A DNA stretch of 31,472 bases. Source: a virus. The stretch is taken from positions 1 to 31,472 of IMG/VR virus record IMGVR_UViG_3300002460_000822; one strand, written 5' to 3'. Position numbers and translations under genes: made by a program. Position 1 is the stretch's first letter; each line of letters starts with the position of its first letter. Shown piece after piece: positions 6,802-30,817 of this stretch. The notes beneath the pieces are model-generated. The model saw only the letters and a program-made list of their open reading frames with translations, did not search any database and had not been told where the DNA came from.

Positions 6802-8934
6802 ATGGACAAGGATCGCACTTCAGATATCCCATCAGAAAATATAGGCAAGGCAGTTGACGCAATGATTAAGTCATTTGAAAACCAGCGCAAGTCTTTTGAA
6901 CGCCGTTGGTATGATAACAACTTCTTTGATGATGGATACCACTTCAGGTATGTTTCACGCTCTACAAATAGAATTATAGATTTATCAGAACGGCAAAATG
7001 TTAACTTACCACAGAGGGCGTTACCAAAGGCTTCAAGACAAATTAGAGGTGTGGCAAACTTGTTACTTCAACTTGACCCGACACCGATAATCTACCCTGA
7101 AAAAGTAAATATAACTGCTTATCAAGAACAGGAACTACAACAGGCAAAAGATCAGGCGAAAGATGTTGCTAAAAAGATAGGCCACTGGCTCAAGGAAGAA
7201 TGGAAGAAGATGCACTTTAAAGACTTATTGACTTATATGGTTATTCTGGCTACTAAGCATGGTGTATCTTTTATGCAAATATGGCCGGATGCGGTCAAGG
7301 AAAAGATCAACGCTCAAGTGTTCGATGCGTTTGATATTTACCTGCAAGGCAACCTGACCTCAATCTATGACTCTCCGGCGATTATCAAGTCAATGCCAAA
7401 GCTGATCTCACAGATTAAGGCCAATGAATTGTTTGACGAGGAGGCAAAAGAACAACTGTCGCCTGATAATAAGTTTGCCTCATCTGAGGTTAAAGAGGCT
7501 TATATGAACGCAAGATACGCTACAGGGTCAGAGTCAGACTACGCCGCAACACTTTTAGAGAAAGAGGCGTTTATTAAAGAATATCTTAATTCGGATAACT
7601 GGGCTGAGGTGTCTAAGAAAAGCGGCAAGTCAGGCGTAATGGAAGGCAAAAGCAAGGGGGACATGGTGATGCGTCATTCTTTTAGCACATCAGGTATTAC
7701 ACTTTTAGATGAGTATATTGATGTCCCCGATTACCCGTTTGTTGATTTCAGATTTGAGCCAGGGCCGATCTATCAGGTATCACTCTTAGAAAGGTTTATC
7801 CCACTTAATAAATCGCTTGATATTATTGCATCACGGATTGAAAGATACGCTAATACGATGGTATCAGGAACGTGGCTAAAGCGCAGAGGTGAGGATTTTC
7901 AGATCAACAACTTGCCAGGCGGTCAGGTGTTAGAGTATACAGCCACCCCGCCAACCCAAGCGAATATCGCATCAATTCCTCCTTTTATGTTTAACTACTT
8001 GAGTTTCTTGGAGAAACTAATCGAAGAACAAGGAGCATCAACATCAGCTCTAGGTCAATTACCAGAAGGCGTGAAGTCAGGGATCGCTATTGAGTCAATG
8101 AAAGCAACTGAATATGCTAACTTAAAAATAGCTTCAAACCAGCTTAAAAACACAGCACGGATGATTGCTGAGAAAATGATTGATGTAGCCAGCAAATACT
8201 TCATTAAGCCGCAGACTGTATTTATGCTGGAGAAAGGTGAGCCGACTTACTACGATGTCATCGGACAGTATGGGGTAGAGGCAAGGCGGAGGGCGGGAAT
8301 GAATGTGCCTAATGCTACTCCTATTAAGTCTGATTATATTGTAGATATAGACGTTGAGTCAGGTTTAGGTTACACGACTGAAGGCAAGAAAGCATCCATG
8401 CAACAGATTATTCAGTTTATATCCGAACTTGCTAAAAACGGCATGATCCCGCAACCTGCCGTAGTTGAGGTAGTCAAACGCTTCTTGGAGGTGTTTCAGT
8501 TCGGCTCAACCGAGGAGTTCATGGAAGCTATCGACAAAGGCCAACAGGAGCAACCGATGGGCGATCAACAGCTGATGCAAATGAAAGTAGCAATTCTAGA
8601 GGCTTTGAAAGAAGCGGGTGAGGTGGGCGAAGAAGCATCTCAAAAGAGAGTTCAGGAGTCGGCGCTTGGCGCTTTACAGGCTATTAAAGATTCAGGTTTG
8701 ATTGAAAACACTCAAAATAAAGAACGAGAACCTGAAAAAGGCCCAAGCAAATCAATATCATTTAAAGACCTTCCTGACGAAGGAAAAGTCCAATTAGCGG
8801 GTCAAGCGGGGATTAGATTATCACCTGAAGATATAACCGCTAAAGAACTCAAAGACAAAGTTATGAATCAAGTTACCAGTTCACAAAACACAAATGCCTC
8901 TACTCAAGGGAAAAAGCGACAAGGTAGTCGGTAA
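6802..8934 (+). CDS. Portal protein (P22-like, long form)
   Basis: 710 residues. The core segment [19 protein letters not shown] (about 77-95) and the following helix-rich body with conserved acidic and Gly-rich loops match large portals of podoviruses. The C-terminal 150 residues are helical and Gln/Lys/Glu-rich, as in the barrel or tail of P22-type portals. A dodecamer of this protein would form the DNA channel at one capsid vertex and dock the terminase. The final 41 bases overlap the next gene in another frame. The start has no Shine-Dalgarno and lies two bases after the preceding stop. Confidence 0.88.
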
Positions 8935-13047: not shown

Positions 13048-14799
13048 ATGAGGGTTGCTGATTATGTTATAGATTTTCTCTACAAAAAAGGCGCTTCATA
13101 TATCTTTACACTTGCAGGCGGCGGGGCAATGTTTTTAAATGACGCTGTAGCTCAACACAAAAAGATCAAATATATCTGCTGTCATCACGAACAGGCGTGT
13201 GCGATGGCGGCAGAGGCTTATGCCAAAACAAATAATAAACTAGGTGCAGTAATGGTCACGTCAGGCCCAGGATCGACTAACACAATTACAGGATTGATGG
13301 AGGCGTATCAGAACTCAATCCCGGTGTTTTTTATCTCCAGTCAGGCTAAAAGGTCACAAATGAGCAGTAGTTTGCGTCAATTTGGCGTTCAAGAGGTTGA
13401 TATTATTTCAATAGTTAACAGATTAACTAAATATGCGGCGGTAGTTGAAAGACCAGAGAATATCAGATTTTACTTGGAAACGGCTTATTTTGAGGCAAAA
13501 ACAGGCCGACCTGGGCCTGTTTGGTTGGATATACCACTAAATGTTGCCGCTTTTGAGATAAATCCGAATAATTTAAGAAGTTCTAATTTAAGAGAAGAAT
13601 ATCCAATAATTGACGAAAACATTGAAAAAGCTGTCAAAATGCTTAAATCTGTCAAAAAACCAGTAATTGTTGCTGGCGGCGGGATAAGATTATCTAACGC
13701 TGTTGGAGAATTAAGACAATTAGTTGAAACATTTAAGATACAAGTCGTTACCCCGCATATGGGAGTTGATTTATTTGAGTTTGATCATCCGTATTATGTA
13801 GGAACGGGTGGTGTAAAAGGTCAACGGGCGGCAAATATAGTCTTACAGAATGCAGATTTGATACTTTCAATAGGTTCACGCCTTGCGGTGGCATTTACGG
13901 GACATGAATATAGCAAATTTGCGCCTAAAGCTAAAAAGATTGTTGTAGATATAGATAGATTTGAACACTTAAAAAAGACTATAAAAATAGACTTGTTTAT
14001 TGAACAGGACGCTAAAGTGTTTATTAAAGAATTATTAAAACATAAGATTGAGTTCACTAACAAGTGGATGGCTAATTGTCAGGAATTGAAGTATAAATAC
14101 TACTCACGTTATCCGAAAGCCGGCGAAGATGAGATAAACATATATGATCTAATCGGTAAAATATCTAAATTGTCACGCCAGCGTGACATTTATATTACCG
14201 ATGCCGGAACTACAACTTACGTTTTAACTCAAGCAGTAAGATTGAAAAAAGATCAAAGAATTATTGTCCCAGGCGCAACGTTGGCAATGGGATATAACTT
14301 ACCGGCGATTGTTGGAACTTATATGGCTGATCCGCAAAGAATTATTTGTATTACAGGCGATGGATCGTTTCAGACTAATATTCATGAACTTCAGACAATC
14401 ATTCACCACAAGATACCAGCGAAGATATTTGTGACCAATAACGGCGGATATCAGGCTATAAGAAATACACAACGTGGGTATTTTAATGATAGGTTTATCG
14501 GTGAAAGCGCAACCTCTGGGATATCTTTTCCAAGCCTTGAAAAGATCACAAGAGCTTACGGGATAAAATACTTCAAGATTAAAGACAACTCTCAGTTGGA
14601 AGAATTTGTCGAAAAGACGTTAAATTACAAGGGAACGGTGATTTGTGAAGTAATCTGTCCGTTTTGGCAGGACGTAGTGACAGTATCATCTAAACGGCTT
14701 CCTGATGGGCGGATGGTGTCTTTGCCGATAGATGATATGGCACCATTTTTATCAGACGAGGAGAAGCAGGAAATTGCTAAAAAACTTGACGAAGTTTAA
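13048..14799 (+). CDS. Thiamine-diphosphate-dependent enzyme (acetolactate synthase-like)
   Basis: 583 residues, the full length of the three-domain family. The N-terminal Pyr domain carries the catalytic glutamate (H-H-E-Q-A at 46-50). The central domain has V-I-V-A-G-G-G. The C-terminal PP domain has the Mg/ThDP motif G-D-G-S-F-Q-T-N beginning at residue 437. It is therefore probably active. Candidate reactions are acetolactate synthase or, given the other sugar genes, the two-carbon transfer to a keto-sugar known from branched-sugar pathways (YerE type). The sequence does not decide between them. It lies inside the virion operon, has its own promoter and is followed by a terminator, so it is an independent insert. 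Confidence 0.9.
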   Translation: MRVADYVIDFLYKKGASYIFTLAGGGAMFLNDAVAQHKKIKYICCHHEQACAMAAEAYAKTNNKLGAVMVTSGPGSTNTITGLMEAYQNSIPVFFISSQAKRSQMSSSLRQFGVQEVDIISIVNRLTKYAAVVERPENIRFYLETAYFEAKTGRPGPVWLDIPLNVAAFEINPNNLRSSNLREEYPIIDENIEKAVKMLKSVKKPVIVAGGGIRLSNAVGELRQLVETFKIQVVTPHMGVDLFEFDHPYYVGTGGVKGQRAANIVLQNADLILSIGSRLAVAFTGHEYSKFAPKAKKIVVDIDRFEHLKKTIKIDLFIEQDAKVFIKELLKHKIEFTNKWMANCQELKYKYYSRYPKAGEDEINIYDLIGKISKLSRQRDIYITDAGTTTYVLTQAVRLKKDQRIIVPGATLAMGYNLPAIVGTYMADPQRIICITGDGSFQTNIHELQTIIHHKIPAKIFVTNNGGYQAIRNTQRGYFNDRFIGESATSGISFPSLEKITRAYGIKYFKIKDNSQLEEFVEKTLNYKGTVICEVICPFWQDVVTVSSKRLPDGRMVSLPIDDMAPFLSDEEKQEIAKKLDEV

Positions 14800-15694: not shown

Positions 15695-16939
15695 ATGGCT
15701 ATAGTGATTTCGGACGTTAGTAACGCTCTGCAAAAAGTTATCATGCCTTATATTAGGGATAACTTTGACAAGAAAACGATTCTGCTTGACCAATTAAAAA
15801 GGAACGCAAATGTTACGTTTATGAACGATAACTTCTATGCTCCTGTTCGATCTACCAGAAATACGGGTTTGGCAAATCTTGCAAATGATGGAACCAAACT
15901 TCGTGCTGGCAAGTCGGGCATTAGTCAGGCAAGCGTGGCAGTAAAAATCTTAACTGGAACATTCGATATCTCGAAGTTGACCATTGATGCTACCAAAACC
16001 GCCAAAGGTGCAGTTGAAAATCAATTGACCTGGCAGGCCAAACAGTTGGCATCAGATTTTGCTAAAAACGTAAACAGACAGATGTATAGTGATGGTGTGG
16101 GAGTTGTGTCAGAAGTTGCCTCCTCTGCAGGAACAGCAACCTTCACGATTCAGCAACCTTCCTCGTCTTTGGATGATGGACGCTCGACTGATTGGTATGG
16201 AACCGTAAACGGCGACATTTCGTATTCTAAATACCTTTTTGCTGGACAAGGCATTGGTATTGGTACGGCAGCCGCTTATTGCGGAACTATATCTTCAGTT
16301 ACAGGCAATACCGTTGTATTGACAGTAGGTACTCCATCAGTTGCAAATGATGCCATCTATTTAGTAGATGGATCAAATTCGGCTGCGGGTACTTCAGAAA
16401 TACAAGGATTGCGATCAGCGTTGTCAACAACGACAGGAACATCGCTTTATGCAGCACTTGCACGATCTACTCAGGGTTGGACTCCACAAGTTGGGACAGT
16501 CAGCGAGGCACTTACTTTATCAGCAATTGAGGATAAGTATTTGTCAGCAGTTGAATATGCCCAAGTTGGTGATCAATATGCCATCTTTGTCAACAAATCA
16601 TTGTTTAAAAAATATGGCGACATATTAACAGCAATGAGACGAACAGTTGATAAAACCCAGTTATTGGGTGGATGGACAGGATTGGAGTTTGCCGCAGGGA
16701 ATGGAACGGTAGGAGTATTTTTGGATTTTGACGTTCCAGATGGAGAAGTTCTTATTGTCAATCTTGATACTTGGACACTTTGTCAGGTATCTGACTTAGA
16801 TTGGCTTGAGTCTCCGTCTGCGGGTGCATTAGTCAGAACCACCGACTATATTACCTATCAGGCAACGATGGTCTGGTTTATGAACTTACTATGTGTTTCG
16901 CCAGGGGCGAATGGTAGGTTAACGCAGAAGACTGATTAA
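15695..16939 (+). CDS. Major capsid protein
   Basis: 414 residues. The N-terminus (A-I-V-I-S-D-V-S-N-A-L-Q-K-V-I-M-P-Y-I-R-D-N-F) and the early F-Y-A-P-V-R-S-T-R-N-T-G segment are typical of HK97-fold coats of short-tailed phages. The body alternates strand-rich and helical parts with a Gly/Thr-rich middle (residues 140-240). It follows the scaffold directly and has the strongest ribosome site in the window, as expected for the most abundant virion protein. A P22-like or HK97-like subtype cannot be settled by eye. Confidence 0.85.
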   Translation: MAIVISDVSNALQKVIMPYIRDNFDKKTILLDQLKRNANVTFMNDNFYAPVRSTRNTGLANLANDGTKLRAGKSGISQASVAVKILTGTFDISKLTIDATKTAKGAVENQLTWQAKQLASDFAKNVNRQMYSDGVGVVSEVASSAGTATFTIQQPSSSLDDGRSTDWYGTVNGDISYSKYLFAGQGIGIGTAAAYCGTISSVTGNTVVLTVGTPSVANDAIYLVDGSNSAAGTSEIQGLRSALSTTTGTSLYAALARSTQGWTPQVGTVSEALTLSAIEDKYLSAVEYAQVGDQYAIFVNKSLFKKYGDILTAMRRTVDKTQLLGGWTGLEFAAGNGTVGVFLDFDVPDGEVLIVNLDTWTLCQVSDLDWLESPSAGALVRTTDYITYQATMVWFMNLLCVSPGANGRLTQKTD

Positions 16940-18416: not shown

Positions 18417-19109
18417 ATGTCTCCTGGACTTAAAAAACACTATCCAGATGTTAGATTTTCTGGAAATAAAGTAACACCAGATGAGGTGGATGAATACGTT
18501 TATACCAATATTTACTATCCGACAGCGTCAGCATCATGGTTTGGAACAGCGGCAGCAGGATCAGCAACTCAAACGAAAGAGTTTGTAATGTTACAGCAAC
18601 AGGCTGATTACACAAGAACACCGCTTTTAACAATAACTTGTGCTTCAGGAACGATTACATCAGGCACTTGTTATCTTACTGGGACTGATCAATTTGGTTA
18701 TGCACAAACTGAAGAAATTAGTGCTCTAGGAACATCGGGTGTTACGAGGGCAGGAACCAAAATCTTCAAAACGATAAGCGCCGGCTCTTTGGTTTTAGCT
18801 AATACAGGAGCGCAAGGAACAGCGCTTGCCACAGCAACTTTGGGAGCAGCGATTGGTACAGCCGCAAACCAAGTTGCAAGATTTGGTTTAGGGTATAAGG
18901 TAGGGGCAGCGTCTGATGTTAAAATGGTCTCTTGGATCAATAATGGGACGGCAACGGGGATAACTGCAGGAACGGTCATCTCAACTTTGGTTTCAGCAAC
19001 GACTCATTCGTTTGCAGGAACAAAGATTGTTGCAGCAACAGATGTATATACTGTCCAAGCAATTCCAACTTATAATGCAGAAGCAGAAACTAAAAACGTC
19101 TGTTCGTAA
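18417..19109 (+). CDS. Virion protein, first of a tandem paralogous pair
   Basis: 230 residues. It shares with the next protein (19151) the order P-G-L-K-K at the start, D-E-V-D-x-Y, A-S-W-F-G-T-A-A-A-G-S, Q-Q-A-D-Y, G-T-D/N-Q-F-G, S-D-V-K-M, S-A-T-T-H-S-F-A-G-T-K and P-T-Y-N-A-E. The rest is a Thr/Ala/Gly-rich beta domain. The place after the capsid gene suggests a capsid decoration or head fibre protein; this is inferred from position. Its ribosome site is disturbed by the endonuclease gene. The C-terminus ends in N-V-C-S, the pair partner in Y-I-A-A. Confidence 0.68.
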   Translation: MSPGLKKHYPDVRFSGNKVTPDEVDEYVYTNIYYPTASASWFGTAAAGSATQTKEFVMLQQQADYTRTPLLTITCASGTITSGTCYLTGTDQFGYAQTEEISALGTSGVTRAGTKIFKTISAGSLVLANTGAQGTALATATLGAAIGTAANQVARFGLGYKVGAASDVKMVSWINNGTATGITAGTVISTLVSATTHSFAGTKIVAATDVYTVQAIPTYNAEAETKNVCS

Positions 19110-19150
19110 GTTGGTAATTAGAAATTAAATAGAGAAAGGGGTGAAAGAAA

Positions 19151-19849
19151 ATGCCAGGATTAAAGAAATATCATCCTGAATTTGACAGTTATAGATCGGG
19201 TATAACCCGAAGAGATAAGGTAACCCAAGATGAAGTGGATCAATATAAGTACACTAAAGTCATCTATCCGTCAACATCGGCGTCTTGGTTCGGAACGGCA
19301 GCGGCGGGTTCATCGGGTCAAGCGAAAGCGTTTGTAATGTTGAACCAACAAGCTGATTATCCGAGAACACCGCTTGTAACGGTTACAAACTCGTCAGGTT
19401 CAATCTGTGCGGGAAGCGCTTATCTTGTAGGAACAAATCAATTTGGACAAACAATAACCGAAACTATTGCACTTTCAGGAACTGAAACTACAACAGCGGC
19501 AGGAACTCATATCTATAAAACCATCACTGCAGGAACGGTTACATTCGGGACTGCGACAGAGGAGGATGGAACAGCTACGTTAGGTGTAGCTGTGGGAACT
19601 ACCGCAGGAGTTGAGTGCCGGTTTGGATTGGGATATAGACTAGGTGCGACATCAGACGTAAAAATGATAACGTGGGTTGACAATGCGACATTAACTGGTT
19701 TGAATAAAGGGACTACTAATAGTAGTTTAGTGTCGGCAACTACCCATTCATTTGCGGGGACAAAAAACCTTGCAATTACGGACATTTATATTGTTCAAGC
19801 GCTACCAACTTATAATGCAGAATACGATGCAACATATATTGCGGCATAA
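19151..19849 (+). CDS. Virion protein, second of a tandem paralogous pair
   Basis: 232 residues, alignable end to end with the protein at 18417 but with about nine extra residues near the N-terminus (S-Y-R-S-G-I-T-R-R-D). AAAGGGGTGA ends six bases before the ATG, so it keeps the strong ribosome site that its paralogue has lost, and is probably the better-expressed copy. A strong terminator follows, ending the capsid transcript. Decoration or head-fibre function is inferred from order and composition. Confidence 0.72.
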   Translation: MPGLKKYHPEFDSYRSGITRRDKVTQDEVDQYKYTKVIYPSTSASWFGTAAAGSSGQAKAFVMLNQQADYPRTPLVTVTNSSGSICAGSAYLVGTNQFGQTITETIALSGTETTTAAGTHIYKTITAGTVTFGTATEEDGTATLGVAVGTTAGVECRFGLGYRLGATSDVKMITWVDNATLTGLNKGTTNSSLVSATTHSFAGTKNLAITDIYIVQALPTYNAEYDATYIAA

Positions 19850-19934: not shown

Positions 19935-20783
19935 ATGAAACTTCCGGTCTGCTTCTTTACAGTCGCTCTCAACGAGATTAACCAACAATACTACAAGATG
20001 ATGCGCAACTCGTTCATGAAGTTTAACAGCAAATATCCACTAATAACCTACGGGAAAGAAGATTTTGATAAAGCTACTAAAACCAAAGAGTTTATAGAAG
20101 GCGTGAATGTAAAAGACCACAAAGACAATATGTTTAGGTTGACGCCGCTTTTTGCCAAAGAGTTAATCAAAGACTATGAACTTGTAGTCAGATTAGATGC
20201 CGACCAGATTATTATGGGGGACTTTGATTATATAGTCGAACAACGTAAAAACTATGATCTAGGGACAGTTTTAAATATAAACAGGGTCGATCCTTTGCAC
20301 TACAAGCCTTGCGGTGGTTGGGGAATACCGCCAAACGAATATTATAATATCGGACTGATCGCTTTTACTTCAGAAAGTTTTTTAAATCATTTATGGAAGT
20401 TGTGTAATAGTAAGTATTTCTGGCGTTTACAATATCGTGAACAGGATTTAGTGAACGTGATGGCTCACTACGGCGACTATCGGGTGAAGTGTTTTGATCA
20501 TCCTAATATAGAAAATAATTATTGTGCTTTTCATGGATTGGTTGCAAAGGGTGAAGGATTACGATTTAGACTTGAAAAAGACGGTGAAAAATACAAAGTA
20601 GTTTTGCCTAAAGGCCCAGACAATTATCCAGATCATGATATGGTTATTAAGGCATATCACTTTGCCGGTGGAGAGTTTGAGAAGAAATACAACTATCATA
20701 TACACTTTAAACCTGACATCGTTGATTATGTTGAATGGTTAATTTCAGATACCGGTAAGCCATATGAAAATAAATCTGAATAA
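19935..20783 (+). CDS. GT-A fold glycosyltransferase
   Basis: 282 residues. It opens with a Rossmann-type strand (V-C-F-F-T-V-A-L-N). The metal-binding D-x-D is V-V-R-L-D-A-D-Q-I-I (D88, D90), and there is a downstream Y-N-I-G-L-I-A-F motif and a late Y-H-F-A-G-G-E that fits the third ligand. The layout resembles GT8-type enzymes that use UDP- or GDP-sugars. It should add one sugar to a glycan or protein. The start is fixed by the promoter; no Shine-Dalgarno. Its end overlaps the next gene by 20 bases. Confidence 0.82.
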   Translation: MKLPVCFFTVALNEINQQYYKMMRNSFMKFNSKYPLITYGKEDFDKATKTKEFIEGVNVKDHKDNMFRLTPLFAKELIKDYELVVRLDADQIIMGDFDYIVEQRKNYDLGTVLNINRVDPLHYKPCGGWGIPPNEYYNIGLIAFTSESFLNHLWKLCNSKYFWRLQYREQDLVNVMAHYGDYRVKCFDHPNIENNYCAFHGLVAKGEGLRFRLEKDGEKYKVVLPKGPDNYPDHDMVIKAYHFAGGEFEKKYNYHIHFKPDIVDYVEWLISDTGKPYENKSE

Positions 20784-21051
20784 AATGTGGGAAAATAGAA
20801 ACATTAAAGCTGAAAACCAGTTTAATAGAGAAATTGAAAGAAAAAAACGTACTTCACGAATAGATTTAGAAACTATAGAAAAAGAAATTAATATAAGAGC
20901 ACCAGAGATCGAACGTATTTTAGAAAAAATATATTACGAATTAACAACAAAAAGTTTTAAAAGTCATTCAGATAATTCTAGTTTAGGTTTAATAATATTA
21001 ATTTATTTTATGTTGATTGCTATAATGATTAAACTTTTTTTAATTAAATGA
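20764..21051 (+). CDS. Small C-terminally anchored membrane protein
   Basis: 95 residues: a basic, helical N-terminal two thirds (likely amphipathic or coiled) and one hydrophobic span at about 74-94 (L-G-L-I-I-L-I-Y-F-M-L-I-A-I-M-I-K-L-F-L-I-K). It overlaps the glycosyltransferase gene by 20 bases and its TGA overlaps the ATG of the next glycosyltransferase. This translational coupling suggests it may hold the two enzymes at the membrane, which is inference. No family recognised. Confidence 0.65.
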   Translation: MKINLNKMWENRNIKAENQFNREIERKKRTSRIDLETIEKEINIRAPEIERILEKIYYELTTKSFKSHSDNSSLGLIILIYFMLIAIMIKLFLIK

Positions 21052-22223
21052 CACCAAAAAAATTACGAATAATGTTTTCATCTAATGCGATTTGGAGTCC
21101 TAGCGGTTACGCCCAGCAGATGCAGGACTTGCTACCATTAATTCGAGATGAGGGTTATCCTTTAGCGATAAGTAATTTTTATGGACAAGAAGGAGGAGTT
21201 TTCCTATTGGATGGTATTTTACAGTATCCTAAAATGGGTCATCCGTGGGGATCAGACGCTATGGTTGTTCACTCACAGGACTTTAACGCCGATGTCACAA
21301 TCACCTTACAAGATATTTGGGTGTTGGATGATAATAATATAAGAGAGTTAAAACGTTTTTGTCCAATTGTGCCGGTTGATCACGACCCGATACCAATGGG
21401 GATATTTAATAAACTAAAACTTGCTTACAAGATAATCACCTATTCAAAGTTCGGTTTTCACCAACTTGAGAAGTTAGGTACAGCGTCAACTTTTATCCCG
21501 CATACAGTCAATACCGAGTTATTTGTTAACTCGAACAAAAAAGCAGAGATCAGAAAAACTTTAGGCATACCGGAAGATATGTTTTTGTTTGGAATGGTAG
21601 CTGCCAACAAAGACAATCCGTCCCGCAAGTCATTTCAGGAGGTATTGGATGCTTTTAAAAGATTTCAAGACAAATACCCAAATAGCGGTATTTACTTTCA
21701 CGTGCTTCTTCAACAGCAAGGCGGATTTCCGATAGATACTTATGCCAACGCAATAAAAATAAAGAATATCTACAATACCCCGCCCTATACACAACTGCTT
21801 AAAGTATCGAAAGCCGACATGGTAAAAATATATAACTCTATAGATTGTCTGCTTGCTCCGTCAACCAATGGCGGGTTTGAAGTACCGTTAATTGAAGCGG
21901 GAGCGTGTGAAGTTCCGGCAATCACCAACGATTTTACCGCTATGAAAGATTTAGTTATAGAAGGCGTTACCGGATACAAGACTAAAGTAGCTTATAAACG
22001 TTATACTCATCTGCAAAGCTATATTGGAATACCAAGTGTTGACTCGCTTTATGAGAAAATGGAGGCGGTTTATGCTACGGATAGGGTTAAAATGGGTAAA
22101 GAAGCACGCAAGTTTGTGGTTGAGAACTTTGACTTGAAGACTACATTTAACACTAAATGGAAATTCTGGCTTGAACGCACGGAAAAGGAAATTTATCCCA
22201 ATCTTGTTGAAAAACTTGACTAA
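21048..22223 (+). CDS. GT-B fold glycosyltransferase (GT4-like)
   Basis: 391 residues. The N-terminal domain has the phage-type opening S-N-A-I-W-S-P-S-G-Y-A-Q-Q, and the middle has I-P-H-T-V-N-T-E-L-F. The donor-binding C-terminal domain ends in the E-x7-E type motif G-G-F-E-V-P-L-I-E-A-G (about residues 277-287). Retaining GT4 enzymes use nucleotide sugars. Similar proteins occur in other phage genomes, role unknown. It is coupled by ATGA to the small membrane protein and closes the three-gene block. Confidence 0.85.
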   Translation: MTPKKLRIMFSSNAIWSPSGYAQQMQDLLPLIRDEGYPLAISNFYGQEGGVFLLDGILQYPKMGHPWGSDAMVVHSQDFNADVTITLQDIWVLDDNNIRELKRFCPIVPVDHDPIPMGIFNKLKLAYKIITYSKFGFHQLEKLGTASTFIPHTVNTELFVNSNKKAEIRKTLGIPEDMFLFGMVAANKDNPSRKSFQEVLDAFKRFQDKYPNSGIYFHVLLQQQGGFPIDTYANAIKIKNIYNTPPYTQLLKVSKADMVKIYNSIDCLLAPSTNGGFEVPLIEAGACEVPAITNDFTAMKDLVIEGVTGYKTKVAYKRYTHLQSYIGIPSVDSLYEKMEAVYATDRVKMGKEARKFVVENFDLKTTFNTKWKFWLERTEKEIYPNLVEKLD

Positions 22224-22730: not shown

Positions 22731-23654
22731 ATGGCGAATTATCCGACTTCATTGGACTCATTAAGTAATCCGTCTGGAACTTCGACTGTAGCAGATTTTA
22801 CTCATTCTGGTATTCATGGAACAGTAAATGATATTGCTGAGGCTTTGGAGGCAAAAGTTGGAGTTGGTGCAGGAACGCCGACTGCAAATAAGATTTTAGT
22901 CGGATCAGGTAATGGAACTTCAGCTTGGAGCACTACATGGAATGCCGCTACTTTAGGAAGTCCAATAATTAACGGTGGTACAATCTCAGTTACAGCAGGA
23001 ACTTTATCAGGTGTGTTAGTTGGAACCTCAACTATAACAGGTGGAACGATATCGGCGGCATTGATTGGCACTTCTCAAATAACAGGAGGAAGTATTGCGG
23101 CAGCCGTTATCGGGACTCCTGCTATAACCGGCGGGACAGTGCAGAACGTACTTCTTGGGACTTCAACCATAACTGGCGGAACGGCAAGCGGAATGTTGAT
23201 GGGGACTTCTTCAATCATAGGGGGAACTTTAAACAGTGTGGCAATCGGAACTCCCACAACAAATAATTATTCATACAATGCTTCATCTAATATAAGCATT
23301 ACAAGTACAAGTTACACTCAGGTCAGTACGGCTAATCTTAAGGGAACCCTTACTTTAACTGGAAATTCAAAAGTCAGGGTAAGTTTTCATACTAACGTTC
23401 TTTCATCTTCTGGAACACCAACTTTTTATTGGCAGGTAGTAAGAGACCCAGCCGCAGGATCAGTAACATTATTTGATGATGTATTGACAATGGTAGCCTC
23501 AACTTATGGTAACGTTGGTGCAACTTTTATAGACGCTCCAGCTGCAGCTTCAGCTGTATATGCGATTACGGCTAAAGTCAATCAGGGAACAGCAATTCTT
23601 GCTAGTACGCCTTATTATTGTTCATTTGCATTGGAGGAAATTAAAGCAGGATAA
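22731..23654 (+). CDS. Tail-fibre-like protein with T-G-G-T repeats
   Basis: 307 residues. The N-terminus (residues 20-70: F-T-H-S-G-I-H-G-T-V-N-D-I-A-E-A-L-E-A-K-V-G) is a common phage tail-fibre connector. Residues 75-175 hold about seven units built on I-G-T-S-x-I-T-G-G-T, period 14 residues. A non-repeat domain (S-I-T-S-T-S-Y-T-Q-V onward), resembling fibre-tip domains, ends the protein. The repeat matches that of the protein at 26435. It probably trimerises. Confidence 0.72.
   Translation: MANYPTSLDSLSNPSGTSTVADFTHSGIHGTVNDIAEALEAKVGVGAGTPTANKILVGSGNGTSAWSTTWNAATLGSPIINGGTISVTAGTLSGVLVGTSTITGGTISAALIGTSQITGGSIAAAVIGTPAITGGTVQNVLLGTSTITGGTASGMLMGTSSIIGGTLNSVAIGTPTTNNYSYNASSNISITSTSYTQVSTANLKGTLTLTGNSKVRVSFHTNVLSSSGTPTFYWQVVRDPAAGSVTLFDDVLTMVASTYGNVGATFIDAPAAASAVYAITAKVNQGTAILASTPYYCSFALEEIKAG
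22975..23260 (+). repeat. Coding repeat, units of about 42 bases (I-T-G-G-T)
   Basis: Successive units encode L-I-G-T-S-Q-I-T-G-G-S, V-I-G-T-P-A-I-T-G-G-T, L-L-G-T-S-T-I-T-G-G-T and similar, 14 codons apart. Two more such units occur in the gene at 26435. Copies differ at many third positions. Confidence 0.65.
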
Positions 23655-23877: not shown

Positions 23878-25020
23878 ATGCTTATCAAAAGTAGAAATTT
23901 GCTTGATCAGTCAGCCGCCTTATCTTACCTTTCAACTGGCGAGGCTGTGGGTGCGGCGACTTTAAAGGTTAAAAATATCAATGCTTTTTACGCTAGTTGG
24001 GGAATACAGGTAGGAAAAACAGGCGAGGAAAAGGCAGAAGTCGTGATCATGTCAACTGCTACACCATCTGGAACATCTTTGGCGCTTGACGGAACGACAC
24101 GATTTGACCATCCAGCAGATTCACCGGTTTATGCGATTAAATACAATCAGGTAATATTCAAGCGTTCTACCGCAGGAACTTCGGGCACGGCAACGGCAAT
24201 GACCGACGGGACGGTTACAATTACGCCGGATTCAGACTACACGATATTCGACGACACTTCAGGTTCATCAACTTACGCTTATCAGGCGGCATATTATAAT
24301 TCAGTCACAACAGAAACTTCGGCAGATTCAGACTGGATGACAACCGCCGGATATACTTTCTATTCACTTGCTAAGATCAGGGAAAGAATAAAGAACAAAC
24401 TAATAAGTGCTAACTATATCAAAGACGATCTAACTATCGACAATTGGGTAAATGAATGGTTGGAAAAGATGACTAACACGGCGATTGATGTTAATAAAGA
24501 CTATGCTATAGGAACGGTTGATATTGCTTACTCCGGCACGGCTGAACTTGGAACGATCACCGAAACTGATTTTAAAGAGGTGCGAAAAGTATGGTTTACA
24601 GCTGATGGAACTAATTGGTATCAGGCAACGAAAATGGACTTAAATGACTTTCAACCAAACACAACCTTTAGCGAAACACATCCTTACTTTTTCTATCAAG
24701 GGGATAATGTTATAGGCAGAAAACCAAACGAAACTTCAGGAACGGTTAGAGTTTACTATTACAAGACAAATGCGATTTTAGCCAACGATACTGATGAGTT
24801 ACCCGTTGCGATGAGAAATTACACTAAATCATTTGTTGATTATTCGCTGGGACAGGCATATCACTTGGATAACAAGATTGATCAAGGTAATCTATTTACA
24901 AGTTCAGCTTTAGGTGAATTGACACAATTTAGGACAGAAATCTCCCCACGCCATAAAACAGGCCCACAGTATATAGATATTGTCGCATCGACAGACGCAG
25001 ATGATTTTGAATTACTATAA
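23878..25020 (+). CDS. Head-tail connector/adaptor-like virion protein (tentative)
   Basis: 380 residues. The N-terminal 160 are beta-rich. The middle (L-A-K-I-R-E-R-I-K-N-K-L-I-S-A-N-Y, then W-V-N-E-W-L-E-K-M-T-N-T-A-I-D-V) forms a helical unit resembling small adaptor proteins of podovirus connectors. The C-terminal part has W-Y-Q-A-T and a Y-F-F-Y-Q-G-D stretch typical of ring-forming connector domains. Its TAA overlaps the ATG of the gp10-like gene by one base, and P22-like phages place an adaptor before gp10. The fusion of a beta N-terminus to an adaptor core would be unusual. Confidence 0.55.
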   Translation: MLIKSRNLLDQSAALSYLSTGEAVGAATLKVKNINAFYASWGIQVGKTGEEKAEVVIMSTATPSGTSLALDGTTRFDHPADSPVYAIKYNQVIFKRSTAGTSGTATAMTDGTVTITPDSDYTIFDDTSGSSTYAYQAAYYNSVTTETSADSDWMTTAGYTFYSLAKIRERIKNKLISANYIKDDLTIDNWVNEWLEKMTNTAIDVNKDYAIGTVDIAYSGTAELGTITETDFKEVRKVWFTADGTNWYQATKMDLNDFQPNTTFSETHPYFFYQGDNVIGRKPNETSGTVRVYYYKTNAILANDTDELPVAMRNYTKSFVDYSLGQAYHLDNKIDQGNLFTSSALGELTQFRTEISPRHKTGPQYIDIVASTDADDFELL

Positions 25021-26435
25021 TGGCAGATATACAACGAATTTCTCAAATATCGGGTTTAAACCTGTATGTTAATCCATTACTAAAAAATGATGGAGATTTA
25101 ATTCGTGCTGTAAATGTCACGTCAGACCAGTATGGATCAAAGACAAAACGACCGGGTTATGAAACTTATTTAGGAACAGCCAACGGATCGGCGGTTGATT
25201 CGCTTTTTTCTTTCTATAAAAATGATGGAACGACTTTTTGGAATTATCGTGCTTCTGGCGGTCTTCTCTATTATTCTTCGCAAGGAACGGGAGCATGGAC
25301 GATAGCGGGAAATGGGACATTAACGGCAGGTGCCAAAGTGGGATATGCGATATTAGACAATACTTTGATTTTAGGCGAAGGGGTTTTGGCGACTCGTCAT
25401 ACTACAGACGGAACATCTTTTACCGATACAACGATTGCACCAGTATCAAACAGTTTCTCAATGTATCAAAATAGAATATATGCCGCTGGAACATCATCGA
25501 GTTTGTTTTACTCGACAACTGGCGATGCCACAAACTGGTCAACCGGAGGCACATCAGATTCATCATCTTTGACTATTCCGGGCGCTGGTAAACTACATTT
25601 ATGTTTCACAGCCAACGATAAGGTGGTAGCGGTCAAAAACTCCGGAAAAATGTTTAAGTGGGACGGATATTCTTTAATTGATATGGCGACGGATTTAGGA
25701 CCATCAAGTCCACAATCTTATGCGAAAATTGAAGATTATTCATTCTGGTTAAATAGACTTGGGATATTTGGTTATGGTGGAGCAAGACCGCAAATCTTAT
25801 CAAATCCAATAGAAAAGCAAATCTATAATAATAGTGGTTCAGCAATAGTGGGTTCTACTTTTGACACAGCCCCGGCCTCTATATATAGGTATGATTACTT
25901 AGTGGCAGTTGGAACACTGACCGATGACTTTACAACTGAAACTATTAATGATGCAATAATTAAGTATGATTTTAATAAGAATGAGTTTATTAACTGGAGT
26001 TTTGCCAACTTTCCAACAGCATTTCACACATATCAAGACGAGAATGGCGTGGATCAGTTAATCTGGGGTGATTCTACGGGACAATGCTATCAACTATCAG
26101 GTACAGAAACATCAGACAACGGATCACGGATTGAATCGATTATGGAATTTATTGTTTATCTACAATTCCCAGAATATGACAAAATTTGGAATTGGTTGTG
26201 GGTAATCACTAATCCAGGGTGTGATGCTAAAATTTCAGTCGCTTTTACCGATACTTATACAAGAGCATCTCTTAACTGGATTGAGATTGGGGATTGTAGG
26301 GATGGGAATAATAGATTTAGGCTGCCTCAAAACTCACGTTCAAAGTTTATGTTTATTAAAATCTACGAATCGTCTTTGAACAAACCTTTTACGATTTATG
26401 GATTATCAGTTGACGGAAAGGTAATGCCGATATAA
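25020..26435 (+). CDS. P22 gp10-like tail hub / DNA-stabilisation protein
   Basis: 471 residues. The opening (D-G-D-L-I-R-A-V-N-V-T... K-R-P-G-Y-E-T-Y-L-G) and the successive repeats of short strands with Gly/Trp turns (N-R-I-Y-A-A-G-T, D-K-V-V-A-V-K, N-R-L-G-I-F-G-Y-G-G) look like a beta-propeller of the type that closes the portal channel in short-tailed phages. The C-terminal F-T-I-Y-G-L-S-V-D-G-K is a common virion domain end. It is coupled to the connector gene (one-base overlap) and to the next fibre gene (one-base overlap). Confidence 0.72.
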   Translation: MADIQRISQISGLNLYVNPLLKNDGDLIRAVNVTSDQYGSKTKRPGYETYLGTANGSAVDSLFSFYKNDGTTFWNYRASGGLLYYSSQGTGAWTIAGNGTLTAGAKVGYAILDNTLILGEGVLATRHTTDGTSFTDTTIAPVSNSFSMYQNRIYAAGTSSSLFYSTTGDATNWSTGGTSDSSSLTIPGAGKLHLCFTANDKVVAVKNSGKMFKWDGYSLIDMATDLGPSSPQSYAKIEDYSFWLNRLGIFGYGGARPQILSNPIEKQIYNNSGSAIVGSTFDTAPASIYRYDYLVAVGTLTDDFTTETINDAIIKYDFNKNEFINWSFANFPTAFHTYQDENGVDQLIWGDSTGQCYQLSGTETSDNGSRIESIMEFIVYLQFPEYDKIWNWLWVITNPGCDAKISVAFTDTYTRASLNWIEIGDCRDGNNRFRLPQNSRSKFMFIKIYESSLNKPFTIYGLSVDGKVMPI

Positions 26436-27034
26436 TGAACTATAAAGATAAAGGTCTTAACCAGTTTTTACAGCCTGAAAAAGCTCCTATAGCAAGAGAG
26501 TCAATAACGACATCCTATGACTTTGATTATAAAAATGAGCGTGGTGTAGTAACTCAATCAACTTTACAATCTGAGGCACTTGGGTCAACTACACTTGCTG
26601 ATGGGGCTGTGACTGAAGGCAAGATTGCTAGTTTTGCGGTAACTTCATCTAAAATTGGCACAGCGGCAGTTGGAACAACGGCACTTGCTGGATCGGCAGT
26701 AATCGCAAGTAAAATTGCCGCAACTGCTGTAACCAATGCAAAGATAAACGATTTTGATTTTGCCAAAGGAACAGGTGTCATATCGGTTGCATCAGGAACA
26801 ATCTCTGGAATACTTTTGGGAACGTCACAAATCACCGGAGGCACGTTAGCAGCAGCTTTAGTTGGAACATCGACTTTAACAGGTGGGACGGTTAATCCGA
26901 CCGTTTATCAAACTGGTGGAACGGTTGGAACAAATGGAACAGTTATTTATATTAAGACAGTCGATTTTTCTGGTAGTGCAACTACATCAGGAACTGTGAT
27001 TTTTAACAATGGTATCGCAATATCAATTACCTAA
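26435..27034 (+). CDS. Short tail-fibre-like protein with shared repeat
   Basis: 199 residues. The first 45 are an anchor-like segment, then A/T/S-K-I repeats (A-V-T-S-S-K-I, A-V-I-A-S-K-I) of a kind common in phage fibre stalks. After that come L-L-G-T-S-Q-I-T-G-G-T and L-V-G-T-S-T-L-T-G-G-T, clearly the unit of the protein at 22731, and a short strand-rich end. It starts at an overlap with the tail-hub gene. Together with the protein at 22731 it may form a composite spike. Confidence 0.65.
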   Translation: MNYKDKGLNQFLQPEKAPIARESITTSYDFDYKNERGVVTQSTLQSEALGSTTLADGAVTEGKIASFAVTSSKIGTAAVGTTALAGSAVIASKIAATAVTNAKINDFDFAKGTGVISVASGTISGILLGTSQITGGTLAAALVGTSTLTGGTVNPTVYQTGGTVGTNGTVIYIKTVDFSGSATTSGTVIFNNGIAISIT

Positions 27035-27088: not shown

Positions 27089-27889
27089 ATGATTAATCCT
27101 AATTTAAGCACAAACTTAAAAAGCGATCTTGCACAAGGACACAATGTCGGCGATATAGATGTAGGTCCTGATAATATCAAATACCGCTGGAGTGGGGCTT
27201 CATGGGAGCGTGAGCCAACCCACATGCAGTCTGCCGCAATTCAATCTCAAGACCCGATGTATATGGCGCAACAGGCATTGAAGTTCCAACAGGAAGCCAA
27301 CAAGCCGGCGATTGCTTCATATGAGGCGGCAATACCAGAGGTCACACAAAAATATGCGACCCAGAGAACTGCCTATCAGGGACAGATTGAGCCCTTAAAA
27401 CAACGTTATCAGTCATTACTTGATGAAATAAAAGGTATTTATGGAACACAGATTAACAGACAGACTTTAGCAACTGGTCGTGAGATGGGCAAACGTGGAG
27501 TGTTACCGTCTTCAGGTTTGTTTGAACGTGAACTTAACTTGGGACTTGAACCGATAGCATCGGAGCAGGCAGCAAAAGTTCAACAGACAGGACTTGCACA
27601 AGAGGCAGATATTAGAGATATACAAAATGCTATAGCGGCACTTACTCCGGCTGAAACCGCAGAACTTCGTTCAATTACAAATGCTATAGCTCAACTTCAA
27701 TCAGGAGCTGGAGCATCAGCTTTATCAAGCGGATTAAGTTATGCTGGTTTAGCACAACAACAACAGCAACAAGCTGAATCTAACAGATTAGCGCAACTAA
27801 CTTATGAATTAGGTGAAAAGAAACAAAGTTGGGAACAATCGCAAGCTAATTTCAATCGCTTGATTGAATTAGCAAAGGCTTATGCTTAA
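27089..27889 (+). CDS. Internal virion protein candidate (Gln-rich, helical)
   Basis: 266 residues. After a short N-terminal domain with a W-S-G-A-S-W-E motif, residues 45-266 are almost wholly helical and rich in Ala, Gln and Glu, with heptad-like spacing and a Q-Q-Q-Q-Q run. The composition and place, ahead of the lytic-domain protein and other helical proteins and after the tail genes, fit the ejection-protein cluster of podoviruses. No enzyme motif. It has its own promoter, the duplicate of the one at 5901. Confidence 0.55.
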   Translation: MINPNLSTNLKSDLAQGHNVGDIDVGPDNIKYRWSGASWEREPTHMQSAAIQSQDPMYMAQQALKFQQEANKPAIASYEAAIPEVTQKYATQRTAYQGQIEPLKQRYQSLLDEIKGIYGTQINRQTLATGREMGKRGVLPSSGLFERELNLGLEPIASEQAAKVQQTGLAQEADIRDIQNAIAALTPAETAELRSITNAIAQLQSGAGASALSSGLSYAGLAQQQQQQAESNRLAQLTYELGEKKQSWEQSQANFNRLIELAKAYA

Positions 27890-27906: not shown

Positions 27907-28506
27907 ATGGATAAAAAAAAACTATTTGATTTTCTACAAAAAGCAAAAGGAATGGGCTATTCTGAAGATGATATTTTAAGTGTTCTTTTGGCAACAAACT
28001 TATTACAGAAAGGACAAGGGCAATCTATAAGTGGGCAATCAGCTGGTTTAAATAGTGGAAGTAATATGAGCGTTGGTAATATACCAATAACGCAAGGTTT
28101 TGGTCAAAAGTCGCCTTATGATGTTTTTTCAGGTGGGGTGAATTACGGAGTAGATTATGCGGTAGGTCAAGGAACACCGGTTAAAGCACCAGAAGGAGAA
28201 TGGCAGATTGAGGAGGTCGCCGGAGGATCAAAGCGAGGATTTATCGGTAATCGTGAAAATCAAGGTTATGGGAATACGATTGTAATAAAAAATATTAACA
28301 CAGGTGAAAAGATAAGAACATCACATTTGTCGCAGATAAATGTAAAACCAGGTCAGACTATACAAGGTGGTGAAGTATTAGGTTTATCAGGCGCAACTGG
28401 TAATGTTACAGGCCCACATACTGATGTTGAATATAGAAATAAACTAGGGGCATTAGCAGATATATTAAAAACTGGTTATGGTAGGCAGTTGTTTGCACAA
28501 AAATAA
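27907..28506 (+). CDS. M23 (LytM-like) peptidase domain protein with changed zinc ligands
   Basis: 199 residues. Residues 1-30 form a helical tag (F-L-Q-K-A-K-G-M-G-Y-S-E-D-D-I) also seen in the next two proteins. Residues 60-185 are an M23 fold: N79-Y-G-V-D83 in place of the usual H-x-x-x-D, H140-L-S, V-K-P-G-Q, G-G-E-V-L-G-L-S-G-A-T-G and G-P-H171-T-D173 in place of G-P-H-x-H. Two of three zinc-ligand histidines are thus Asn and Asp. The protein may be inactive, bind another metal or serve as a wall-binding part of the ejection apparatus. No signal peptide. Confidence 0.75.
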   Translation: MDKKKLFDFLQKAKGMGYSEDDILSVLLATNLLQKGQGQSISGQSAGLNSGSNMSVGNIPITQGFGQKSPYDVFSGGVNYGVDYAVGQGTPVKAPEGEWQIEEVAGGSKRGFIGNRENQGYGNTIVIKNINTGEKIRTSHLSQINVKPGQTIQGGEVLGLSGATGNVTGPHTDVEYRNKLGALADILKTGYGRQLFAQK

Positions 28507-28509
28507 GCT

Positions 28510-29172
28510 ATGGATATAGAAACTAAAAAACAGCTATTTAGAACACAAGCACAAAAGATGGGTTTTTCTGTTGATGATATTGCAATGGCTGAACAAATAA
28601 TAGGAGCAGGAGGAGATAAAGCAGAAAAAGAAGCTATTGCTTTAGAATCTTCACGGTTTGAGCTTGAACAAAAAAAGAAAACACCAGAAGAACTCGGCGA
28701 AGAAGAAGCATTAACAGAAATTACGAAAAAAAAAGCTCTAAAGAGAGCTGGAATTGGCCTAGAAACAGAAGTATCAGCTGAGGAAAAAAAACAACAAAAG
28801 AAACTTCGAGATGTAGCCTCTGCAGTTGATCAACTTGAAGAAAATTATAATCAACTTGAAGTCAAAGGACCGTGGGTTGGTGATGTGGCTAAATTATTTT
28901 CAGGTATTACAAGAGGGAAAATGAATCCACAAATTAGAGATTATGAAGCCTTGCGTAAAAGTATGATTGGTCCATTGGCAAGAACAATATCAGGAGAAGT
29001 TGGAGTTTTAACAGATCGTGATATTGCAAGAGCTGAGGATTTATTACCCAAAGTTGAAGATGCTCCTGAAGTTGTTAAAAATAAACTTTACAATTTACGA
29101 AGAAGAATAGGAGAAATGAGTGGAACAAAGACAGAAAAGAAAAGACCATCATTAGAAGAATTATTTAAATAA
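28510..29172 (+). CDS. Internal virion protein candidate (helical, charged)
   Basis: 220 residues, mostly helical. N-terminal tag A-Q-K-M-G-F-S-V-D-D-I as in its neighbours, a highly charged coiled-coil middle (K-K-K-T-P-E-E-L-G-E-E-E), and a C-terminal domain with Y-E-A-L-R-K-S-M-I-G-P-L-A-R-T-I-S-G-E-V-G-V-L-T-D-R, of a type common in phage proteins near ejection genes. No catalytic residues. It starts three bases after the stop of the M23-like gene. Confidence 0.58.
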   Translation: MDIETKKQLFRTQAQKMGFSVDDIAMAEQIIGAGGDKAEKEAIALESSRFELEQKKKTPEELGEEEALTEITKKKALKRAGIGLETEVSAEEKKQQKKLRDVASAVDQLEENYNQLEVKGPWVGDVAKLFSGITRGKMNPQIRDYEALRKSMIGPLARTISGEVGVLTDRDIARAEDLLPKVEDAPEVVKNKLYNLRRRIGEMSGTKTEKKRPSLEELFK

Positions 29173-29173
29173 T

Positions 29174-30193
29174 ATGGATTTAAGACAAAAAGTACAGGCG
29201 GCAAAAGACGCTGGATATTCTGATGAGGAAATCTCCCAATTTCTTCAAAAAAGAGGAATAAATGCTTCTGTGTCAGAAGTTGAACCTGTTCAAGGATATA
29301 AAAAAACTACAAGAGGTGTTTCCGATGTTTTGAAAATGCTTGGATTGGGTGCAATTCCTACTATTGCCGGAGCGGGTTATGAGGCGGTTCGTGCAGGAAA
29401 ACAAAGAATTACAGGTGAAAATCAATACGTTAATGAACAAGGACAACCAGTAGAAAATCCTTTTCTTTCCTATGAAGAAATGGGTAAGGCTCGAACACAA
29501 CCAGTTGAACAAATAGGACGACAAACTGCGGGACTTGCCGCTTATGGAATACCATTTGGTGGCAATATACCAAGAATGGCACTTCAAGGGGCGGGGAGAT
29601 TTGCAGGATATACTGCTTCTCAACCAGAATCTAATTTAAAAGACATAGCAAAAGCTGGTGTAACTGGGGCTGTTGTTGAACCAGGATTAGGATTATTAGC
29701 TAAAACTATCCCAAAAATATTTAAACCATTTAAAACGGTTGGAGAATATCGTGCTGGCAAAATAGCAGAAGCTACTGGTAAAACAGTATCCGGTGATAAG
29801 ATAATATCAGCTTTAGAAAAAGGAGCACGTGAAGTTTCGCCAACCGCAAAGATGAGTTATGATAGATATTTAGAACAAGCAAAACAAATGTTTAAGGGTA
29901 GACAACTAACCGTTGATGAAGTAATAAAACTTAACCAAGGAGCAAATGATGCTTTTACTGCTGCCGGTAGAGTTGGTAAAGCGTCAGTTGCTAAATTCAA
30001 TAAAGTATTAGGTGATGTTTTAAAATCAGAACTTAAAATAACCGCACCAGATGTAGCGAAAGCTAACGAATTATTTAAAAAACTTTATGGAACTCAAAGA
30101 GCATTAAAAACTGGGATACCAAAAGCCGCAATCGGAGTTACTGGTGGAGCGGCTGGATATTGGTTAATGAATAAATTATTAGGAAGACAATAA
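29174..30193 (+). CDS. Internal virion protein candidate with hydrophobic stretches
   Basis: 339 residues. The N-terminal tag is A-A-K-D-A-G-Y-S-D-E-E-I-S-Q-F-L. Gly/Ala-rich hydrophobic stretches lie at about 53-70 and 170-180 and at the end (A-A-I-G-V-T-G-G-A-A-G-Y-W-L-M). The middle is amphipathic helix. The pattern suits a protein that enters or crosses the host membrane during DNA ejection; this is inference. The stop overlaps the next small gene by one base. Confidence 0.58.
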   Translation: MDLRQKVQAAKDAGYSDEEISQFLQKRGINASVSEVEPVQGYKKTTRGVSDVLKMLGLGAIPTIAGAGYEAVRAGKQRITGENQYVNEQGQPVENPFLSYEEMGKARTQPVEQIGRQTAGLAAYGIPFGGNIPRMALQGAGRFAGYTASQPESNLKDIAKAGVTGAVVEPGLGLLAKTIPKIFKPFKTVGEYRAGKIAEATGKTVSGDKIISALEKGAREVSPTAKMSYDRYLEQAKQMFKGRQLTVDEVIKLNQGANDAFTAAGRVGKASVAKFNKVLGDVLKSELKITAPDVAKANELFKKLYGTQRALKTGIPKAAIGVTGGAAGYWLMNKLLGRQ

Positions 30194-30292: not shown

Positions 30293-30817
30293 ATGAACAA
30301 ATTTACTGATTTTATTACCAAATACAATAGTAGATATGTAGAAGTGGTCGACCCAAACGCCTATGCGCAGTGTTTCGATCTTGTATTACAATGGTGCATT
30401 GAACTAGGTATCCCAAAAAACATATTTCCTTTTGCTAACGCTTACCAAATTTATACCAATTATGGACCAAACCAATCTGTTTATTTTGATCGTATTTATA
30501 ATTCTCCTGATGCTATTCCCAAGGAGGGAGACATTTTAGTTTGGGGTAATTCCTATAACTACGCCGGAGGACATACGGGAATCTACAAAAGCGGGGATAT
30601 TTGGACTTTTACTGCCTTTATCCAAAACGATCCATTCAAAACTCCATCCCATTTAAAAACCTATAACTATAATTATGTTTTAGGATGGTTAAGATATAAA
30701 AATTATATCTCACAACCCACAGTCGAACAGCTTGTCAAATCAATCAAAGATAAAATCAATACAAATATTAGCGATACGGAGTTTAGACAGTGGACTAGAA
30801 AGCTTTTGAACGTTTGA
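30293..30817 (+). CDS. CHAP-domain lysin
   Basis: 174 residues. Catalytic Cys is C27 in A-Y-A-Q-C-F-D-L-V-L-Q-W, and His is H94 in Y-A-G-G-H-T-G-I-Y; the spacing and the following I-W-T-F fit an amidase/endopeptidase of the CHAP family. A C-terminal extension of about 40 residues (L-V-K-S-I-K-D-K-I-N-T-N) may bind the wall. It should cut peptidoglycan peptides during lysis. No signal peptide, so a holin is needed. No Shine-Dalgarno; the upstream A-T-A-C-C-ATG resembles the leader at 83. Confidence 0.8.
   Translation: MNKFTDFITKYNSRYVEVVDPNAYAQCFDLVLQWCIELGIPKNIFPFANAYQIYTNYGPNQSVYFDRIYNSPDAIPKEGDILVWGNSYNYAGGHTGIYKSGDIWTFTAFIQNDPFKTPSHLKTYNYNYVLGWLRYKNYISQPTVEQLVKSIKDKINTNISDTEFRQWTRKLLNV

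Follow-up and report, generated by a model that had tools for sequence, protein, structure and literature searches.

Cargo choice by short-tailed phages is known mainly from the genetics of P22. According to the accessible parts of two reports, the scaffolding protein, not the portal, is required for the P22 ejection proteins to enter the procapsid, the N-loop of the scaffold helps gp16, and no recognition signal on the cargo is described (PMC4992974, PMC12005531). In T4, a short conserved element, the capsid targeting sequence (CTS), stands on otherwise diverse internal proteins and directs them into the scaffolding core (available text of PMC3012670). The available portion of a 2017 survey predicts that large polyvalent proteins are packaged and injected, and mentions neither the tag described here nor the letters GYS (PMC5512222); domains swap between ejection proteins, as stated in the part at hand of PMC8954989. 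The subject of this work is a tag of about 24 residues at the start of three consecutive proteins encoded at positions 27907-30193 of the uncultured virus record IMGVR_UViG_3300002460_000822, a stretch of 31,472 bases with 38 called proteins (9763 residues) that is called the window below. The tag is a real phage module, apparently undescribed in the open-access literature. On balance, we lean towards the three genes being the ejection block of a P22/SU10-type podovirus and the tag being a helical-hairpin docking module for procapsid loading.

Like the T4 CTS, the tag is a short N-terminal element heading otherwise unrelated proteins, whose internal status would follow from their relatives and gene position. 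Unlike the CTS, it is predicted to be a helical hairpin and is often doubled. The CTS differs from it in sequence and is removed by the prohead protease, and CTS loading is proven, whereas loading by the tag is a proposal. What links the tagged proteins to gp7, gp20 and gp16 of P22 is the P22-type portal and a place in the gene order behind the adaptor and gp10-type genes; the three P22 ejection proteins have no such tag by eye.

The tag on three consecutive proteins

The three proteins, all encoded on the plus strand, are an M23-like protein of 199 aa (27907..28506) and two proteins of unassigned function with 220 aa (28510..29172) and 339 aa (29174..30193). As first described, their open reading frames (ORFs) begin with MDKKKLFDFLQKAKGMGYSEDDILSVLL (27907), MDIETKKQLFRTQAQKMGFSVDDIAMAEQII (28510) and MDLRQKVQAAKDAGYSDEEISQFLQKRG (29174). 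The tags, also on the plus strand, are FDFLQKAKGMGYSEDDILSVLLAT (27925..27996), QLFRTQAQKMGFSVDDIAMAEQII (28531..28602) and RQKVQAAKDAGYSDEEISQFLQKR (29183..29254), with the motif G(Y/F)Sx(D/E)(D/E)I starting at residues 17, 18 and 14, respectively. The expression G[YF]S.[DE][DE]I has exactly three matches in the 38 window proteins, all in these ORFs, while the composition of each protein leads one to expect 0.0028 matches over all residues and 0.0004 in the first 45, the latter figure being optimistic because the expression was devised after sight of the three tags. The shared N-terminal motif claimed in the preliminary description is thus confirmed, and so is its statement that the remainder of the proteins is unrelated, since blastp of the three bodies gives no significant mutual similarity (best E 0.05).

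A hidden Markov model (HMM) and a position-specific score, both built from 34 tags of other phages with the window excluded, rank the three tags very differently. Among 31,349 open frames, the HMM finds the tag of the 29174 ORF at E 2.1e-9 and that of the M23-like protein at E 7.4, and does not report that of the 28510 ORF. The position-specific scores are 44.7, 19.3 and -1.2 (shuffle p 0.17), respectively, against a background maximum of 13.6 when the window and 21 other tagged phages are scored together (707 ORFs of 100 aa or more, the tags of those phages excepted). Two of the window tags are therefore members of the family by profile, the one at 29174 a strong member. The 28510 tag has the core A-x-x-M-G-F-S-x-D-D-I in common with its M23 neighbour, and the rest of the family pattern is absent from it. 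This weakness outside the core would suit a chance likeness of the three N-termini, which is nevertheless very improbable, as the other two tags stand well above background with a window-blind model and the core motif is so rarely expected. At the DNA level, only 33-39 of 72 bases are identical between the window tags, so they are not recent copies of one another.

Structure prediction points to helical hairpins: the AlphaFold model of a tandem tag (59 residues, mean pLDDT 83) has four helices in two hairpins. Its best matches in BFVD, a collection of predicted viral structures, are two large polyvalent proteins, an LT_GEWL protein and a PcfJ-like protein, at 36-42% identity and Foldseek E values of 0.005 to 0.36. 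The fold search of solved PDB structures with the tag model gave no match at E 0.001 or better, and the Pfam and PHROGs searches gave no named family for the tag.

These searches also bear on whether the tag could be a small domain active in the infected cell, a UBA/CUE-like or helix-turn-helix-like adaptor for a host protein or DNA. Such a domain would fit the likeness to UBA_2 (E 0.24, 11.9 bits, cut-off 23) and UBA_6 (E 0.17, 12.4 bits, cut-off 23.5) in Pfam, the CUE domain among the weak PDB fold matches (E 9.7) and the helix-turn-helix-like segments of two small proteins, which we take to be terminase small subunits, among the next-best scores of the tag model (11.9, 11.5). All of these similarities fall below their thresholds, however, and the model has two helices per unit, not the three of the UBA/CUE fold. 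The tagged N-termini are equal in acidic and basic residues, unlike a DNA binder, and the link to podoviral portals described below would go unexplained, so that a role of this kind seems improbable.

In the PDB profile search, DotG/IcmE, with many 10-residue repeats and KxAGYS-like cores, alone reached a strong total, but this is a sum of weak local matches in which no single stretch passes, and the candidate was rejected; designed helical repeats score in the same way and were set aside too.

The tag family and the proteins behind it

An IMG/VR scan for the codons of GYSDEEI at any position returned at least 120 records, and two further scans brought the total to at least 346 loci. In the first scan, among the matches listed, the motif lies within the first 40 residues in 15 of 42 scorable families, with 5.0 expected (63 families, minus 21 that were shorter than 100 aa or whose start was not known). 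In the N-terminal cases the likeness extends beyond the heptapeptide: alanine precedes the glycine by four positions, and two hydrophobic residues follow the isoleucine. These tags often come as tandem pairs, the copies spaced by 19-30 residues. An N-terminal tag scoring 12 bits or better is present in at least 109 records, the window included, and in at least 57 of them it is tandem. The search for the tag on other phage proteins, suggested in the preliminary description, was thus productive, and a stricter back-translated pattern in the full IMG/VR scan still found 53 viral records. Apart from one open-ended record left unscored for position, 47 of the 52 have the tag at the N-terminus, compared with 9.5 expected if it were uniformly placed. 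The same pattern was found in three records in 257 Gb of prokaryotic genomes, a comparison of counts that has no rate ratio, the size of the viral collection in bases being unstated. Of these, one has a tandem tag at the N-terminus of a 1,992-aa protein, another has the tag at the C-terminus of a 511-aa protein on a Patescibacteria contig (L402), and the last has it at residue 79 of a 176-aa frame. The tag is therefore largely confined to viral records. The heptapeptides GYSDEEI, GYSDDEI, GYSDEDI and GYSEDDI have no occurrence in 5.39 million open-access papers, and the accessible parts of the Peru-2 preprint and of the literature on P1 DarA/Hdf hold nothing on the tag.

Cultured phages are among the carriers. 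With three tandem tags as tblastn queries against annotated phages, two gave no matches and the third led to KF-1, Amaethon and VPMS1; the Amaethon protein as query led on to PH1 and two metagenomic podoviruses. In KF-1, Amaethon and VPMS1, the tandem tag occupies residues 131-198 of a protein of 961-1010 aa at the end of the injection-gene block, in MW202744 the homologue carries the tag twice, within residues 7-79, and MW202665 and PH1, a Pseudoalteromonas phage with a marine host, have copies at about 404-506, that of PH1 being single and weak (score 17.7). These positions indicate that the tag stays ahead of the body, with other domains sometimes preceding it. The proteins of KF-1 (L395:11500-14409), Amaethon (L396:11453-14485) and VPMS1 (L397:11605-14490) are annotated as hypothetical or tail tape measure despite the podoviral injection block. 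For KF-1, the open-access literature yielded a genome announcement only, and no virion proteomics.

The proteins behind the tag are diverse. Among the matches listed, 97 tagged proteins fall into 46 body families by blastp, and 37 are left after removal of the doubtful (7 of 46, by eye) and the short ones; truly unrelated folds are fewer, because blastp splits remote homologues. As judged by homology, the tagged proteins with known relatives include P22-type DNA-transfer, internal virion and large polyvalent proteins. Residues 53-628 of the tagged protein of L028 are 41.6% identical to a 'putative DNA transfer protein' of phage DSL-LC05, which lies at the place of gp16: as in P22, it is preceded by gp10, DNA transfer protein p32 and a further gene. 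The protein of L179 matches the 'internal virion protein' family phrog_6651 at 7e-24 and, weakly, an internal virion protein with an endolysin domain (3e-5). That of L326 is a DarB-like large polyvalent protein with LPD38, LPD3 and InPase, and large polyvalent proteins also supply two of the four top BFVD matches to the tag; the window proteins, in contrast, are short and have no LPD domain. One further protein (L120) matches a family named major head protein, and there is one Zeta_toxin match.

Among the matches listed, 17 of 35 tagged records have the P22-type portal (phrog_156), or 16 of 34 once the window is set aside, compared with four of 40 controls; many of the records in this comparison are fragments. 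The tagged set comprised 36 records, of which 34 were used (the near copies L039 and L098 were left out), with doubtful tags in L053 and L011. The controls, hand-picked from 84 remaining records with GYSDEEI elsewhere, include three (L019, L025 and L027) that carry another N-terminal GYSDEEI variant and account for two of the four control portal matches. Of the 17 tagged records with the portal, 16 have portal and tag on one strand, with the tag 7.5-19.1 kb downstream of the portal; four of the 16 qualify only if taken as circular. In P22, portal and gene 16 lie 7.6 kb apart. Co-orientation by itself is weak evidence in phages.

The window itself follows the P22-type gene order of portal, coat, adaptor, gp10-type and then ejection genes. 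On the plus strand, a P22/SU10-type portal protein (6802..8934; PF16510 2.3e-7, phrog_156 6.3e-12), the major capsid protein (15695..16939; phrog_14242 1.5e-20), an SU10-type adaptor (23878..25020; PF24175 5.9e-10) and a head-closure or tail-hub type virion protein (25020..26435; phrog_3287 5.4e-9) are followed by the 26435 and 27089 ORFs, the three tagged ORFs and a CHAP-domain endolysin at the downstream end of the cluster (30293..30817; PF05257 2.7e-7, phrog_7887 endolysin 5.4e-9). This matches the P22 order of portal, coat, gp4, gp10, gp26, gp14 and the ejection genes 7, 20 and 16. Homology of the window bodies to gp7, gp20 or gp16 is not detectable by phmmer with the ejection proteins of DSL-LC05 and P26218 against the window ORFs (no match at 1e-3). 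The untagged 266-aa protein just upstream of the tagged trio (27089..27889, plus strand) occupies the position of gp7 and is conserved in the window relatives L393 and L394 (1e-38) and weakly in L392; as a P22-type gp7 homologue it was rejected, with a probability of 0.2% against gp7 profiles.

Proposed docking in the assembling head and rival readings

By analogy with P22, the tag would most simply be a docking hairpin for the assembling head. The folded hairpin would bind a common receptor there, most likely the scaffolding protein or an ejection protein already bound to it close to the portal vertex; packaging of the DNA would then drive out the scaffold, and at infection the tagged proteins would exit through the tail. 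The M23-like protein could act at or bind peptidoglycan, and the other two could contribute to a channel through the envelope. The preliminary description had proposed a delivery signal that acts by packaging into the capsid or by docking on the portal. The first part gains ground from a tag that is N-terminal, promiscuous, mostly viral, linked to the P22-type portal, placed at the position of ejection genes and carried by relatives of DNA-transfer, internal virion and polyvalent proteins. Docking on the portal in particular is not supported, because loading of the P22 ejection proteins needs the scaffold and not the portal in the accessible parts of the same two reports (PMC4992974, PMC12005531); the portal is a possible receptor to which nothing points in particular.

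The M23-like protein has a Peptidase M23 domain (PF01551, E 9.3e-15, 55 bits against a cut-off of 28.7). Of the HxxxD ... HxH residues, which we take to be the zinc ligands of M23 peptidases, PDB alignments show that D83 and H171 are retained, while the first histidine is replaced by N79 and the last by D173. Because two of these residues are replaced, the domain may be a binder of peptidoglycan rather than a hydrolase, or may rely on a different metal. A peptidoglycan-hydrolase-type domain in an ejection block recalls the T7 gp16-type internal virion protein; unlike in T7 gp16, the domain in the window is a stand-alone tagged protein with altered zinc ligands. The phage records matched by the M23-like protein have M23 domains in tape-measure and other proteins, and PDB 9k2v_E, named 'Internal protein', includes an M23 region. 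No direct relatives of the M23-like protein or of the 29174 protein were found in IMG/VR.

Several observations weigh against the docking reading. The second window tag is weak, a match of the core only, and most of the 37 tagged body families match no named family. By the stricter pattern, 3 of 52 tags are C-terminal and 2 internal, and tags behind an N-terminal domain, as in the cultured phages, also exist. The literature yielded no virion proteomics for any tagged protein. The other tagged genomes examined carry the tag on one protein each, so 'one tag, several cargoes of one phage' rests on the window; in this check one model was built with the window tags included, and the window itself shows one tag at the threshold of 12 bits. 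Relatives of tagged proteins, moreover, do without the tag. The DSL-LC05 homologue of the L028 protein begins by eye with a doubled NPFAQF motif, and the Rhodoferax P26218 homologue with a hairpin-like stretch. The window relatives L392-L394 have no tag, and in G030 the 327-aa homologue of the 28510 protein (phmmer 7.9e-7) is untagged, although a separate neighbour in the place of 29174 is tagged. That the tag is necessary is thus not supported.

L392 has the same gene order as the window. A single 458-aa protein there resembles the 28510 body at residues 73-201 (6.2e-38) and the 29174 body at residues 233-440 (1.4e-7), and neither its start nor the join between these parts bears a GYS tag; in the window its halves are separate polypeptides, each tagged. 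Separate polypeptides, each labelled, are what an address would need, but the untagged 28510 homologue in G030 implies that one label per polypeptide is not obligatory. The single protein of L392 could also suggest that the tags are an evolutionary residue with no separate function, carried along in fission or duplication of the ejection block, and the frequent tandem tags would make copying easy. Yet the window tags have diverged in DNA with their core residues kept, the core is retained across dozens of protein families, and L392 has no tag at either its start or its fusion point. We regard such a residue as quite unlikely.

The main rival to docking is a module for ejectosome assembly. Once the proteins are ejected, it would make contacts among them, or with the tail or the inner membrane, while packaging is set by other parts of the proteins. 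It would explain the cargo and position evidence as docking does, tandem hairpins suit protein-protein contacts, and the untagged relatives retain both body and gene position. On the other hand, the tagged proteins vary widely in size and domains and include a large polyvalent protein, for which a common role in channel building is not needed, and most tagged genomes have a single tagged protein, which leaves no tagged partner to assemble with. An assembly role is accordingly doubtful, though it deserves more weight than the residue or infected-cell readings.

Returning to docking, a wider version of it may be put forward tentatively, as a possibility that we would not yet bet on. The hairpins, single or tandem, would be a general and exchangeable address module that directs ejection and large polyvalent proteins to the head interior in P22-type phages and in others lacking the T4 system, and other N-terminal motifs (tandem NPFAQF-type, AGD hairpin, the start of P22 gp16) would be alternative labels read by matching variants of scaffold or portal. 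If so, the window would illustrate most clearly how a single label can serve more than one cargo. A recognisable tag would provide a handle on the signal by which cargo is recognised, would allow injected proteins to be predicted among the many unannotated large phage proteins, and would give a short sequence with which proteins of choice could be loaded into P22-type capsids.

Other elements and neighbouring genes

The proteins at the gp16 position in DSL-LC05 (L122:19908-21863), Rhodoferax P26218 (L123:16598-18439) and P22 (L165:11484-13313) have three other N-terminal elements, that of P22 gp16 being yet another sequence by eye; these short elements are possibly alternative labels. In L272 (660-3844, minus strand), a 616-aa protein directly after the gp10-type gene has the tag at its extreme C-terminus, and at the start of the next gene a (P/S)LD(S/A)FV motif occurs in duplicate; L424 and L431 likewise have C-terminal tags. 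In L191, L023, L189, L173 and L422, FGxQDYIKAKExGYSDDEIxxYL occurs in the middle of proteins of ~250-390 aa, apparently of one family.

The window portal and adaptor had no matches when searched against annotated phages, and the major capsid protein matched two weak records. There is no clear Shine-Dalgarno sequence ahead of 27907, 28510 and 29174, where the upstream DNA is A/T-rich, perhaps a sign of a host whose translation initiation does not need one. Within the structural region, the genes at 596-2285, 5167-5910, 13048-14799 and 19935-22223 look by eye, with no search made, like FkbM-like methyltransferases, a sugar epimerase, a thiamine-dependent acetolactate-synthase-like enzyme and glycosyltransferases, as if for modification of surface sugars. 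Two adjoining genes at 18417-19849 resemble paralogues by eye, with similar N-termini and a SASWFGTAAAG stretch. The proteins encoded at 10582-12111, 22731-23654 and 26435-27034 are, again by eye, rich in repeated GGTI/SGT-type units and are probably fibre-like.

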